Source of the DNA: an uncultured Verrucomicrobiota bacterium
Lineage (GTDB): Bacteria; Verrucomicrobiota; Verrucomicrobiia; Limisphaerales; UBA9464
Direction: 5' to 3'
DNA length: 64,000 bases
Assembly: GCA_903910585.1 (NCBI GenBank)
Contig: CAIWAH010000252.1
Coordinates: 1-64,000, forward strand
Shown here: in pieces, positions 49,713-62,315 of the stretch
Numbering within the stretch: position 1 is the stretch's first letter
How the letters are laid out: each line of letters opens with the position of its first letter
The notes under the pieces: generated by a model
The model's database searches: none
Told to the model about the DNA's origin: nothing
The model's input: only the letters and a program-made list of their open reading frames with translations
Made by a program: the position numbers and the translations under genes

Positions 49713-50130
49713 GCGGTGATAAGGTCTGCCGACGCTGAGGGCGGGTTTGAAAATGGAGTCTGACTGGCGTTCCTGCCTTGTCCGGCTGACCTCAGACCCA
49801 TCCGCGGCCAAGAAGTCAGTCCCGTGTCCGTCCGCCATTCCCTCTCCTGGGGGAGAGGGAAAGGATGAGGGCGGGCGTTTCATCCATCTGCGGATTGAAG
49901 GACATAAATGGCAGGTGGCCCGCCCTCACCCCGGCCCTCTCCCCCGAGGAGAGGGAGAATCCGCAGTCAGCTCCAGACCAGCTGATCGCCTCCCGAACGT
50001 CGCCCGCTTCCGGTTGAACCATGCCTTTCCCGACCCGGACAGGTTGCGGATTCTGGGTGTGAAATCGGCTTCGAGCGCATTTTCAAGCCGACACCGGGCT
50101 GTTTCGCCGAAACGGAGCGCCGCCTTCTGC
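49713..50130. other. Convergent intergenic region carrying a REPIN-like element
   Basis: This 418-bp stretch lies between the thioesterase gene (ending 49712) and the Trx/heme/PDZ gene (ending 50131). I see no gene in it. Its main content is the palindrome pair at 49840-49955. No clear terminator for either gene is visible apart from the palindromes themselves. Confidence 0.7.
49840..49955. repeat. REPIN-like pair of inverted palindromic repeats (copy C)
   Basis: Two GC-rich palindromes lie 116 bp end to end in opposite orientation. The left is CCCTCTCC-TGGG-GGAGAGGG (49840-49859) with a tail ending GAGGGCGGGC. The right is GCCCGCCCTCACCCC (49918-49932) leading into CCCTCTCC-CCCGA-GGAGAGGG (49935-49955). 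Here the asymmetric tails point inward. Close relatives occur twice inside the CDS at 58047-62315, where the tails point outward. Confidence 0.85.
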
Positions 50131-58046: not shown

Positions 58047-61000
58047 ATGGCGTGGCGGTTCAGTTGTTTGTCCGGCGTTCTGTTCCTGTTGGTAGCATTG
58101 GGCTCGTGGCGGGCGCGGGCACAGCACGCCACCGGCACAGCGGCTTTCGAGGCGGCCGCCGGTGACGCCAAACGCTTCCAGCTGGCGCCCGGCCTCAAGC
58201 TCGACGTCTGGGCCGCCGAACCGCAGCTCAGCAACAGCGTCGCCTTCGCCTTCGACGGCAAGGGACGGGTCTATCTCGCCGAATCGGACCGCTGGGCCAT
58301 CAGCGTCTTCGACATCACGGCGCACACCAATTGGCTGCTCGCGGACATGTCCTTCCGCAATGTGGCGGAACGCGGCGCCTTCCTGACGAACCAGTTCACG
58401 ACGAATCCGCCGCCCAGCGTAGGGCAGGCTGCCAGCCTGCCCAACCCGCTCGCCTTCCTCACCAAGGACAGCGAAGTCGTCCGCCGCGTCGAGGACCGCG
58501 ACGGCGACGGCAAGGCCGACCACTCGGAAATCCTCGCCACCGGCTTCACCAACGCCGTGGACGGCACCGCCGCCGGCGTGCTGGCGACCCGCGAGGGCGT
58601 CTACTTCGCGAACATTCCGAGCCTGTGGCGGCTTTCCTCGACAGAAGTAATCAGTAGGTCAGTGGTCAGTAATCAGTCGGCGGCCAAACCGTCTTCCACT
58701 GACTCACTGAATACTGACCCACTGTTGACTCGTTCCCCACTGGCCACCGGCTTCGGCGTCCACATCGGCGTGTCCGGCCACGACCTGCACGGGCTCATCA
58801 AGGGCCCAGACGGACGCATCTACCTGAGCTTCGGCGACCGCGGCTGCGTGCTCACTAACCGCGAGGGCGTCGTCATCAACCTGCCCGACACCGGCGGCGT
58901 GCTCCGCTGCGAGCCCGACGGACGCGACCTCGAAGTCTTCTGCTACGGCCTCCGCAACCCGCAGGAACTCGCCTTCGACGACTTTGGCAACCTCTGGACC
59001 GTGGACAACGACACCGCCGGCGCCGACCCCTGCCGCGTGCTCCACCTCGTCGAGGGCGGCGACTACGGCTGGCGCACCAGCTACCAGCACATGGACGGCT
59101 TCGGCCCGTGGGTGCAGGAGGAACTCTGGAAGGGCGGCCAGGACGGCATCCTCCCGCCTGCCGGCACCGTGAGCCAGGGCCCGAGCGGGCTCGCCTTCTA
59201 TCCCGGCACCGGCTTCGGTGAACGGCTCGCCGGCACCTTCCTCCACTGCGATTTTCCCGGCGGCGTGTGGGCCTACACCGTGAAGCCGCAGGGCGCGAGC
59301 TACGTGGTGGACCGCAAGGAGAAGTTCCTGTGGAACTGCTGGCCTACCGACGTGGACTTCGGCCCCGACGGCGCGGCCTACGTGCTCGACTGGGTCAGCG
59401 GCTGGGGCCAGACGCCGCGCGGAAGGATCTACCGGATCACGCCCACCGACGTAGCCGCCGAGGTTACGAGGCGGACCGGCAGCGACGCCACGAACGAATC
59501 CGCCTCCTCACGTCGGCGGCTACCGGAGCCGGAACTCATCGCCCAAGTGAGGCAGTTGCTCGCCGAAGGCATGGCGCAGCGCGGCGAAAAGGAACTGCTC
59601 GACCTCCTCGGCCACGCCGACCGCCGCGTGCGACTGGAAGCGCAGTGGGAGTTCGCCGCCCGAGCCAGTGCGGACAGCTTGAATTCGGAATCCTTCTCCT
59701 CACTTACTCAAGCGGCACTGGAGTCTCCCCGCGAGCTGCAACGGCTCCATGCGATCTGGACGTTGGCACAAATCCGCCGGCAGAACCTGGTTCGGAATCG
59801 TGATCACTCCGCCAACGTGCATCGTCTGGCGCCAGCGCTCCTGGACAGTTCACCCGCCGTGGCCCGGCAGGCGGCGCTAGCGTTGGCCGAGGCCGGGTTC
59901 GTGCGCTTCGTGTCACAATTCGCCCAGTTGGCATCGGCGGACAATCCCGCAGTGACCGAGTTTGCCATTCGCGCGCTCGCGCGCCTGGGCGATAGGAGCC
60001 CCCTGCGCCTGGACCCTCCGCCCCGTCTGACCGAAGCCGCAGGCAAGGTCCCAGCTTGGCTGGGCCAGCGTGTGTGGCAGTGGAAGGTGGAGGATATCCG
60101 TGAGGAAACTGGGCTGGAAGGCTTCGGCCTCAAGGCCGTGCTCGAAGCCTCCGAATCACCCGATCCGTTCGTTCACGAGGCGGTAGTGCAGTGGATTCTG
60201 GCCCGCCTGCGCGCCTCCCAGATATCGCGCGGCTACGAATGGCAACCAGCGACATGGAGCTTTGGCCGCGCCACAAACGGCAATTCCCGGCTGGCTTCGG
60301 TTCACGCCCTGGCTCGGCTTGTTAGTCCCTGTGTCACCAACTTCCTCTCCGATTCCGACCCGCGCCTCATCATCGCGGCCGGACGCGCCATCCACGACGT
60401 GCCGATCGTCGAGGGTTTCCCGGCGCTGGCGGCGTTCGTCACCAAGATTGACTGCCCCACCAACCTGATGTCGCGCGTCATCAACGCCTGCTACCGCCTC
60501 GGCACCCAGCAGCACGCGCAGATGCTCGCCGGCTTCGCCGCCCGCGAGGACGTGCCCGACTGGGCCCGGGTCCTCGCCCTCCGCGCCCTCGCCGACTGGG
60601 AAAAACCCTCGCCCCTCGACCGCGTGAACGGCCTGTGGCGGCCACTCATCGTAGGGCAGGCTGCCAGCCTGCCCGCCGCCCCGAGTTCCGTGCCTGTCCA
60701 ACAACCGGCGCAATCCGATTCGGCTTCCGCTCCCGCTTCCCCCTCACCCCGACCCTCTCCCTCGGGGAGCGGGGGAAACGCCGCCAGCCCGTCCGGCAAC
60801 GAAGCCGTCCAGGTAGCCGCAACGCCTTCTCCTTCCGCTGAAAACCCATCGCTGACTTCCGCTCCCGCGCTTTCAGATTCCAGCACGCGTCCGACAGCTT
60901 CCCCCTCTCCTGGGGGAGAGGGCCGGGGTGAGGGCGGGCCCGCCTCGCGCAGCGCTGTTCCTTCCAATCCTCTCCTCGAACGCGCCGCGCAGGCCCAAGC

Positions 61001-62315
61001 CGCCCGCAATCTAGGCCGCGCCTCGGAAATTCCCGTGCTGCCCTCCGACTTGGGCCGCTCCGTGCCCTACGACGAGGCGATGGCCCTGCGTCGCAATCCC
61101 GCGCCCGCCCAGCGCGCCTTCCTCCGCGTGGCCGGCGACCTGATGAATCCCTTCAACCTCAACGAGGCCGGCCAGCCCGCCGGCACGCGCGAGGTGTTGC
61201 CGCTCCAGATCGCCGTCGCCGAAGCCGCCGCCAAACTGCGCGTGAAGGAAGCCGGCACGCCGCTCTTCGAGAAGTTCGCCCACACCAACACCGCCCCGGA
61301 ACTCCGCCGCGCCATCCTGCCCGCGCTCGCCGAACTCCGGTCCCCGCTCACCGGCGACGCGGTGAAGCTCGCCCTCGCCGATCCCGATCCGAAACTGCGC
61401 GCGGTTGCCCTGCCTTACCTCGACCGGCTCGACGGCGGCGAAGACACGGTTGGGCTCTTGGTCAGCTTGATTGGTGGCCCGCCCTCACCCCGGCCCTCTC
61501 CCCCGGGGAGAGGGGGAAACGCAGTCAGCCCGTCCGGCGACGACACCGTTCAGGCCGCAGCAACGCCTTTGGCTTCTCCCGGCGACCCAGCGCGGACTTC
61601 GGCACACTCGCCTTCGGCCGCCAGCACGCGTCCGAATGCTGCTCCCTCTCCCGGGGGAGAGGGCTGGGGTGAGGGTGGGCGCCCCACCGACATTCCGCTC
61701 GCTCAGGCTGCCCTCGCGGCATTGGCGAAACTTGCGGATGCCGAGGCCGATGCTGCCGTTCGCAGCGCGTTGGCGGCGCTCGACGCCAAGCAACTCCCGG
61801 TTGACCTCGCCGTGGATGTGCGGGAGGCCGCCAAAGCGAGGGGCCTTTCGGCTCAGCGCGCCGCACTTCCGGAACTGCTCGTCGGCGGCAACGCCGAGCG
61901 CGGCCGACAGGTTTTCTTCCAGAACCAGACGGTGCAGTGCCTGCGGTGCCACAAGATTGGCGCCGACGGCGGCATCGTCGGGCCCGAGCTCACTGGCGTC
62001 GGCAAACGGCAGGCCCGTGACTACCTGCTCGAAAGCATCCTGCAGCCCAACGCGAAGATCGCCGCCGGCTTCGAGACCGTGGTGCTGACCCTGAATGACG
62101 GCTCCACCGTGGCGGGAGCGCTCAAGTCGGAAACCGCCTCCGAGTTGGGCGTGGAGGTGACGGGGGACGACGGCCAGCCGGCGCTGACCCGGGTGGCCAA
62201 GTCCGCCCTGAAGCAGCGCGAGCGGGGACCGAGCGCGATGCCGGAAGGCCTGGGCGACCAGCTCGCTGCGTTCGAGCTGCGCGACTTGGTCGAGTATCTG
62301 GCGACCCTGCGGTGA
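58047..62315 (+). CDS. PVC-type dehydrogenase/cytochrome c protein with repeat-derived insertions
   Basis: Secreted protein of 1422 residues. The first 26 residues are a signal peptide (LSGVLFLLVALGSWRARA). About 40-470 is the PVC membrane-bound dehydrogenase propeller (FQLAPGLKLDVWAAEPQLSN, GHDLHGLIKGPDGRIYLSFGDRG, GLRNPQELAFDDFGNLWTVDND, GPDGAAYVLDWVSGWGQTPRG). HEAT-like helices fill about 500-1260, and the C-terminal cytochrome c domain carries Cys1298, Cys1301 and His1302 in CLRCHKIG with Met in AMPEGLGD. The frame is interrupted by at least six palindromic repeat insertions that stay in frame, listed separately. They encode Pro/Ser/Gly-rich low-complexity stretches, unlike the rest. The gene stands alone between the DUF4185-like gene (76 bp upstream) and a convergent small ORF. 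Confidence 0.9.
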   Translation: MAWRFSCLSGVLFLLVALGSWRARAQHATGTAAFEAAAGDAKRFQLAPGLKLDVWAAEPQLSNSVAFAFDGKGRVYLAESDRWAISVFDITAHTNWLLADMSFRNVAERGAFLTNQFTTNPPPSVGQAASLPNPLAFLTKDSEVVRRVEDRDGDGKADHSEILATGFTNAVDGTAAGVLATREGVYFANIPSLWRLSSTEVISRSVVSNQSAAKPSSTDSLNTDPLLTRSPLATGFGVHIGVSGHDLHGLIKGPDGRIYLSFGDRGCVLTNREGVVINLPDTGGVLRCEPDGRDLEVFCYGLRNPQELAFDDFGNLWTVDNDTAGADPCRVLHLVEGGDYGWRTSYQHMDGFGPWVQEELWKGGQDGILPPAGTVSQGPSGLAFYPGTGFGERLAGTFLHCDFPGGVWAYTVKPQGASYVVDRKEKFLWNCWPTDVDFGPDGAAYVLDWVSGWGQTPRGRIYRITPTDVAAEVTRRTGSDATNESASSRRRLPEPELIAQVRQLLAEGMAQRGEKELLDLLGHADRRVRLEAQWEFAARASADSLNSESFSSLTQAALESPRELQRLHAIWTLAQIRRQNLVRNRDHSANVHRLAPALLDSSPAVARQAALALAEAGFVRFVSQFAQLASADNPAVTEFAIRALARLGDRSPLRLDPPPRLTEAAGKVPAWLGQRVWQWKVEDIREETGLEGFGLKAVLEASESPDPFVHEAVVQWILARLRASQISRGYEWQPATWSFGRATNGNSRLASVHALARLVSPCVTNFLSDSDPRLIIAAGRAIHDVPIVEGFPALAAFVTKIDCPTNLMSRVINACYRLGTQQHAQMLAGFAAREDVPDWARVLALRALADWEKPSPLDRVNGLWRPLIVGQAASLPAAPSSVPVQQPAQSDSASAPASPSPRPSPSGSGGNAASPSGNEAVQVAATPSPSAENPSLTSAPALSDSSTRPTASPSPGGEGRGEGGPASRSAVPSNPLLERAAQAQAARNLGRASEIPVLPSDLGRSVPYDEAMALRRNPAPAQRAFLRVAGDLMNPFNLNEAGQPAGTREVLPLQIAVAEAAAKLRVKEAGTPLFEKFAHTNTAPELRRAILPALAELRSPLTGDAVKLALADPDPKLRAVALPYLDRLDGGEDTVGLLVSLIGGPPSPRPSPPGRGGNAVSPSGDDTVQAAATPLASPGDPARTSAHSPSAASTRPNAAPSPGGEGWGEGGRPTDIPLAQAALAALAKLADAEADAAVRSALAALDAKQLPVDLAVDVREAAKARGLSAQRAALPELLVGGNAERGRQVFFQNQTVQCLRCHKIGADGGIVGPELTGVGKRQARDYLLESILQPNAKIAAGFETVVLTLNDGSTVAGALKSETASELGVEVTGDDGQPALTRVAKSALKQRERGPSAMPEGLGDQLAAFELRDLVEYLATLR
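58419..58441. repeat. 23-bp palindromic repeat, copy 1, inside CDS
   Basis: The sequence GTAGGGCAGGCTGCCAGCCT plus GCC contains a palindrome (GGCAGGCTGCCAGCCTGCC). It is inside the reading frame of the PVC dehydrogenase gene and encodes VGQAASLP. The same 23 bp recurs at 60651. Confidence 0.92.
58645..58730. repeat. Imperfect inverted repeat of CAGT-rich heptamer-like units, inside CDS
   Basis: Left arm 58645-58676 and right arm 58697-58729 are imperfect inverted copies, about three quarters identical when one is reversed and complemented. Both consist of short CAGT/ACTG-containing units (such as GGTCAGTGGTCAGTAATCAG) separated by a GC-rich loop. They encode a Ser/Thr/Asn-rich insertion in the propeller. 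Confidence 0.8.
59451..59523. repeat. 73-bp inverted-repeat element, inside CDS
   Basis: The left end GTAGCCGCCGAGGTTACGAG (59451-59470, arm to 59475) is matched by a right arm at 59499-59523 whose reverse complement differs at three of 25 positions. The 23-base centre is unrelated. It encodes the insertion VAAEVTRRTGSDATNES near residue 470, at the join of propeller and helical domains. Confidence 0.88.
60651..60673. repeat. 23-bp palindromic repeat, copy 2, inside CDS
   Basis: Identical to the repeat at 58419-58441, in the same reading frame relative to the palindrome (again encoding VGQAASLP). It lies directly upstream of the larger element at 60740. Confidence 0.92.
60740..60939. repeat. 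About 200-bp palindrome-bounded element (copy A), inside CDS
   Basis: It begins CCCTCACCCCGACCCTCTCC and ends in the inverted counterpart (CCCTCTCC-TGGG-GGAGAGGG at 60903-60922, then CCGGGGTGAGGGCGGGC). The tails point outward. The encoded 67 residues ([20 protein letters not shown] and onward) align without gaps to copy B at about two thirds identity. Confidence 0.9.
61476..61680. repeat. About 200-bp palindrome-bounded element (copy B), inside CDS
   Basis: It begins GGCCCGCCCTCACCCCGGCC and contains CCCTCTCC-CCCGGG-GAGAGGG at its left end, with the inverted counterpart at its right end (61644-61680). Its encoded stretch starts PSPRPSPPGRGGNAVSPSGD. Orientation and frame are the same as in copy A, 740 bp upstream. 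Confidence 0.9.

Follow-up and report, generated by a model that had tools for sequence, protein, structure and literature searches.

The dehydrogenase gene at positions 58047–62315 of the analyzed window, i.e., the whole 64,000-nucleotide stretch of DNA from an uncultured Verrucomicrobiota bacterium, contains inserts that are very probably mobile REP/REPIN-type palindromes that entered a working gene. Families A and B certainly belong to this type of palindrome, and family C is assigned to it by analogy. Movement of the elements is inferred, with no transposition observed. The host gene and its inserts are located as follows.

58047..62315, plus strand: PVC-type heme-binding dehydrogenase, host of the inserts (open reading frame, domain matches, 20 orthologues).
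58407..58448, plus strand: A1, a 42-nt insertion holding one family-A REP (58419–58442), reads PPPSVGQAASLPNP (empty in 20 orthologues).
About 58652..58725, no strand assigned: CAGT-rich inverted repeat in a linker (sequence, fold z of −4.1).
59451..59523, no strand assigned: B, a REPIN of two GTAG-headed REPs in inverted orientation, reads VAAEVTRRTGSDATNESASSRRRLP (genome copies, fold).
60651..60674, plus strand: A2, a second family-A REP, reads VGQAASLP (genome copies, fold).
60741..60944, no strand assigned: C1, an element of ~204 bp bounded by inverted CCCTCACCCC..CTCTCCC palindromes (genome copies).
61482..61685, no strand assigned: C2, a second C element with the same CCCTCACCCC..CTCTCCC arms (genome copies).

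The dehydrogenase is encoded as 1422 amino acids in a single uninterrupted frame, with an architecture of beta-propeller, HEAT repeats, and C-terminal cytochrome c, and its PVC-type heme-binding domains are intact (TIGR02604, E = 1e-40; TIGR02603, E = 2e-31). This agrees with the sequence-only reading, which had described a 1422-residue PVC-type dehydrogenase with intact propeller and cytochrome motifs. That reading had also counted at least six palindromic insertions of four families, all in frame, and each of A1, A2, B, the CAGT-rich repeat, C1, and C2 was recovered. Its statement that the neighboring genes are free of repeats held for families A and B, of which the 64-kb window has no other copy; one further half element of family C lies at 49923. 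On sequence evidence, the dehydrogenase is under purifying selection outside the inserts; with the inserts left out, a dN/dS of 0.27 was obtained against the same-genus genome G001 and 0.17–0.33 across four relatives, though the G001 value mostly averages over the time preceding the newest inserts. The genome to which the window belongs (G000) is a MAG of 5.3 Mb, 89% complete and in 411 contigs. Searched with a fragment of the propeller, it gave a next-best match of 59% identity, so that no intact duplicate of the dehydrogenase is known.

The hairpins of A1 and A2 are the identical 24-nt sequence GTAGGGCAGGCTGCCAGCCTGCCC, starting at 58419 and 60651, while C1 and C2 are 80% alike. Folding as single-stranded DNA was compared with shuffles for the A, B, and CAGT hairpins, which gave −11.3 kcal/mol with a z of −3.8 for A, and z values of −4.6 for B and −4.1 for the CAGT repeat, all three being considerably more stable than the shuffled sequences. 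The A1 insertion exceeds its 24-nt REP by 18 nt that remain without explanation. The CAGT repeat has the weakest standing in the set; across the sampled 1.56 Mb, its type of run recurs at just two further places. A sub-threshold match of C1 to Rfam whalefall-1, the only Rfam match, was dismissed as chance.

The sequence-only reading had proposed searching each repeat across the genome, and this search of 5.3 Mb returned ~60 matches for A, 60 for B (half-site), and 51 for C, as compared with 0 for a reversed control, indicating that the three families are not chance occurrences. A and B both begin with a GTAG head followed by an imperfect palindrome, which meets the criterion for REPs; such a head was sought in family C and is absent. 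In the sampled 1.56 Mb, inverted dimers make up 14 of 45 elements of family A and 27 of 36 of family B, so that A and B also meet the REP/REPIN criterion of high copy number with inverted dimers. What had been overlooked before is that A and B are GTAG-headed REP/REPINs, and that a RAYT, itself in frame inside a gene, adjoins family A. Family A is almost limited to its own genome, with one imperfect match in G001, and family B is widespread in the taxonomic family (26 of 58 genomes, with 282 matches in G027 alone).

To evaluate how often the elements sit in frame inside genes, gene calls were made with a home-made procedure from codon scores on the same 1.56 Mb, which consists of contig stretches picked in part for containing repeats and of which 88.6% was called coding. 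Among elements away from contig ends, 16 of 38 (A), 19 of 32 (B), and 8 of 36 (C) lie in frame with coding sequence on both sides, and only 5 break a frame. The tally is too low, because A2 and one REPIN on contig C46 were missed where the next element is too close. Approximately half of the A and B elements are hence in frame within coding sequence, which does not meet the REP criterion of being predominantly extragenic. The dehydrogenase holds more A/B/C elements than any other gene (5 versus 0.1 expected; P = 7e-8, or about 3e-4 after counting genes), followed by an SNF2 gene with 4. Every A copy that is in sense orientation or part of a dimer (13 of 13) reads VGQAASLP; a second reading phase is stop-free in most A dimers, yet it is unused. 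A stop-free frame is not remarkable in itself, since shuffled DNA of the same composition retains, of its 6 frames, 3.4 without a stop at a length of 73 nt and 1.2 at 204 nt. Divisibility of the length by 3 was likewise rejected as a rule, as the elements differ in length and the frame is restored by the bases next to them. In-frame hairpin inserts that leave the gene unbroken turn out to be common in the host's order.

The insertion history was traced in orthologues. The A1 site is empty in 20 of them, and a clean 42-nt insertion exists only in the genome studied here. B is common to this genome, G001, and G007, the last being of a different genus, and is absent from most other orthologues. 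The C2 site is occupied by a C element here, by a CTGCCGGTT..AACCGGCAG REPIN in G001, and by a B-type REPIN in G007. At the C1 site, only the right half of the element is retained in G001, with a different inverted repeat to its left; the A2 linker of G001 also holds another inverted repeat. In G007, G022, and G033, the CAGT linker contains simple repeats of other kinds. Extending the comparison to 31 orthologues from named Verrucomicrobia MAGs gave the same picture. Empty sites and different families at the same sites indicate that the loops are permissive and were hit repeatedly. The CAGT and C1 linkers differ in length in other species that lack these palindromes, indicating that the linker, and not only the element, is permissive there. 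In AlphaFold models, pLDDT was about 60 for A1, 33–43 for the CAGT linker, and 42–50 for B in loops of the N-terminal part, and the A2/C1 and C2 stretches, located between HEAT helices, had about 30–40 without secondary structure. Every insert is thus predicted to lie in a loop between secondary-structure elements (pLDDT about 30–60). These results bear out both options of the sequence-only reading: tolerance of insertions at loops, which remains inferred, fits this placement, and a sink for palindromes fits the excess of elements and the refilling of linkers by different families. The finding named as able to refute it, i.e., the same residues in orthologues without DNA palindromes, was not encountered at A1, B, or C2.

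A candidate mobilizer was identified in the same genome, which contains five Y1_Tnp genes. One of them, on contig C46, lies between two family-A REPINs and thereby satisfies the criterion of a cognate RAYT; family B has no such neighbor among the five.

G000:C46:20901-25295 (L111:901-5295): SNF2 helicase with a complete RAYT and REPINs between motifs I and Ia, encoded as a single protein.

The C46 RAYT matches PF01797, keeps the HUH and Tyr motifs, and matches NF047646 (REP-associated tyrosine transposase) below the curated cut-off; it is the likely mobilizer of family A. The REPIN–RAYT–REPIN unit is continuous with the SNF2 frame between motif I (DEMGLGKT) and LVVCPTTLVFNW, and the single fusion protein contains PF00176, Helicase_C, and Y1_Tnp. 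A 56%-identical RAYT occupies the same SNF2 site in G022, a genome of another genus (G022:C19, L347), where it is flanked by its own GTAGGACGGGC REPINs. A second SNF2 linker holds a GTAGGACGGGC REPIN in G022 and an A element in G000, so that two linkers of this gene carry A-REPINs in one genome and GTAGGACGGGC REPINs in the other. The RAYT site is empty in G001, G019, G007, and G013, and the host parts of SNF2 are conserved with a dN/dS of 0.06–0.13. Searches of PDB sequences with the RAYTs gave no match. Another RAYT of the same genome, at G000:C411:15668-15904 (L034), has flanking GGAG-headed REPs (GGAGCGCGGCTCTCTGAGCCGC) that represent a further REP family.

The RAYT found in AlaRS was used as a query against 293 genomes of the order. 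Its closest matches (E below 1e-29) are all in open frames of at least 555 aa, and none stands alone. RAYTs of this related clade are in frame in AlaRS, ThrRS, and PriA in about 30 of the 293 genomes, which represent many families of the order.

L367-L394: RAYTs hosted by AlaRS or ThrRS.
L395-L396: RAYTs hosted by PriA.

In AlaRS the insertions come after approximately residue 293 (site I) or 400 (site II), in ThrRS after approximately residue 279, and both AlaRS sites are filled in G085, G095, and G181. The AlaRS frame of the single-contig genome G129 extends over 1197 aa without a stop, and assembly is therefore not the cause of the fusion; the inserts of G129 and G055 are bounded by GGAG/GGGGA-headed double hairpins. 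The AlaRS and ThrRS RAYTs form one clade (99/95) within which the site labels switch several times, indicating that the element moved between sites or was exchanged. Between genomes, dN/dS of these RAYTs is near 0.05 with saturated dS, and nearly all of 39 in-frame RAYT copies retain the HUH and Tyr motifs. Those in AlaRS, ThrRS, PriA, and SNF2 meet the Y1_Tnp criterion (PF01797; NF047646 below the curated cut-off). A Pfam search detected no Hint/splicing domain in these fusions, and nothing suggests protein splicing of the inserts. An in-frame RAYT also occurs inside a G001 protein with a UDPGP domain, and another, at a contig edge, inside the DNA polymerase III alpha subunit DnaE (G036:C74, L352:2-1669). 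Two further hosts were named by eye: a type I restriction R-like subunit ending with an in-frame RAYT (G001:C98, L349), and a DNA methyltransferase-like gene that appears frameshifted downstream of its RAYT (G003:C117, L350).

One reading of these fusions, to which we give even odds, is that a RAYT lineage of this order, composed of transposase and terminal palindromes, persists inside essential enzymes, in whose loops it forms coding inserts without stops, is made within the host protein, and moves from site to site; a second AlaRS copy in the fusion-bearing genomes is not excluded. Being lodged in AlaRS (two sites), ThrRS, and PriA, it would not be easily lost, and the REPINs of the dehydrogenase would represent the non-autonomous side of the same strategy.

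Other origins of the dehydrogenase inserts have to be considered. Low-complexity linkers could have grown by slippage, with the palindromes incidental, as the CAGT and C1 linkers vary in length and simple repeats are present in several orthologues. This is very doubtful for the set as a whole: A, B, and C are near-identical DNA at about 50–60 places each, genic and intergenic alike, and the copies are mostly GTAG-headed or inverted dimers. The genome-wide copies largely refute slippage for these families, and it may account for the CAGT repeat. It is also quite unlikely that the inserts were domesticated for use, either as hairpins regulating the mRNA or as linkers serving the exported protein. 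The shared position of B in three species from two genera and the strict reading phase of family A would agree with such a use, but A1 occurs in one genome only, the linkers carry different families in different species, and the 20 codons of the B insert exhibit no measurable constraint. Even for a MAG of 411 contigs, decay or misassembly of the dehydrogenase is hardly credible in view of its 1422-codon frame, intact domains, dN/dS of 0.17–0.33 against four relatives, and several inserts that recur in independently assembled genomes.

We hence favor the entry of mobile palindromes into a working gene, for which the following mechanism may be proposed. The RAYT, a HUH/Tyr single-strand transposase, would move hairpins to many places. 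Copies that break the frame or the fold would be purged, and those located in loops with a stop-free frame would stay. The same few loops were inferred to be refilled by different families because only such copies stay. The inserted residues would form flexible Ala/Ser/Pro/Gly loops without a function of their own; their translation is probable but inferred, with no proteomics at hand. The same process may have captured the transposase in frame inside the SNF2, AlaRS, ThrRS, PriA, and DnaE genes.

Short mobile DNA would thus add peptide repeatedly to working proteins at the same loops, and protein growth by mobile DNA is directly traceable, since filled and empty sites exist in close relatives. 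If RAYTs are indeed made inside AlaRS, ThrRS, or PriA, a transposase can persist by hiding in an essential gene, which would open the long-standing question of why RAYTs are retained. Gene callers and structure-prediction tools can be expected to encounter Ala/Pro/Ser stretches that are mobile DNA. The stacking of several families in one gene, the repeated filling of particular linkers, and the presence of complete RAYTs in housekeeping enzymes appear to be new; in a partial survey of open-access literature, tRNA synthetases or helicases with an entire RAYT as a coding insert were not described.

The fusions resemble inteins with homing endonucleases in that conserved enzymes contain an in-frame DNA-acting domain at sites used repeatedly, but they differ from inteins in having no Pfam splicing domain. 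REPINs of Pseudomonas and E. coli are inverted REP dimers that are mainly extragenic, and their RAYT is a free-standing gene flanked by cognate REPs. The inverted dimers and the flanking of the RAYT by cognate REPs are the same here, whereas the elements are often intragenic and the RAYT is in frame in a host gene. Rickettsia palindromic elements were described to be inserted in frame in unrelated genes at fold-compatible places (Ogata 2000, 2002, via PMC10969869). The present elements share such placement, a likeness in behavior only, and differ in that a candidate transposase adjoins one family. GTAG REPs are known to form hairpins and dimers, to be linked to RAYTs (REPtrons), and in some cases to be coding inside ORFs of several bacteria, among which Opitutus terrae, likewise a Verrucomicrobium, has the largest number of intragenic GTAG repeats (Di Nocera, De Gregorio and Rocco 2013, PMC3733652). 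As in-frame palindromes are already known from Rickettsia and O. terrae, the dehydrogenase is a new, extreme case of an established phenomenon. Families A and B share the GTAG head, hairpin, dimers, RAYT link (seen for A), and some intragenic coding copies with the GTAG/CGTC REPs of PMC3733652. Those REPs are however mostly intergenic. Here, by contrast, coding sequence contains approximately half of the A and B elements in frame, a single gene accommodates several families, the same linkers are filled anew in different species, and even the RAYT is carried in frame by its hosts.
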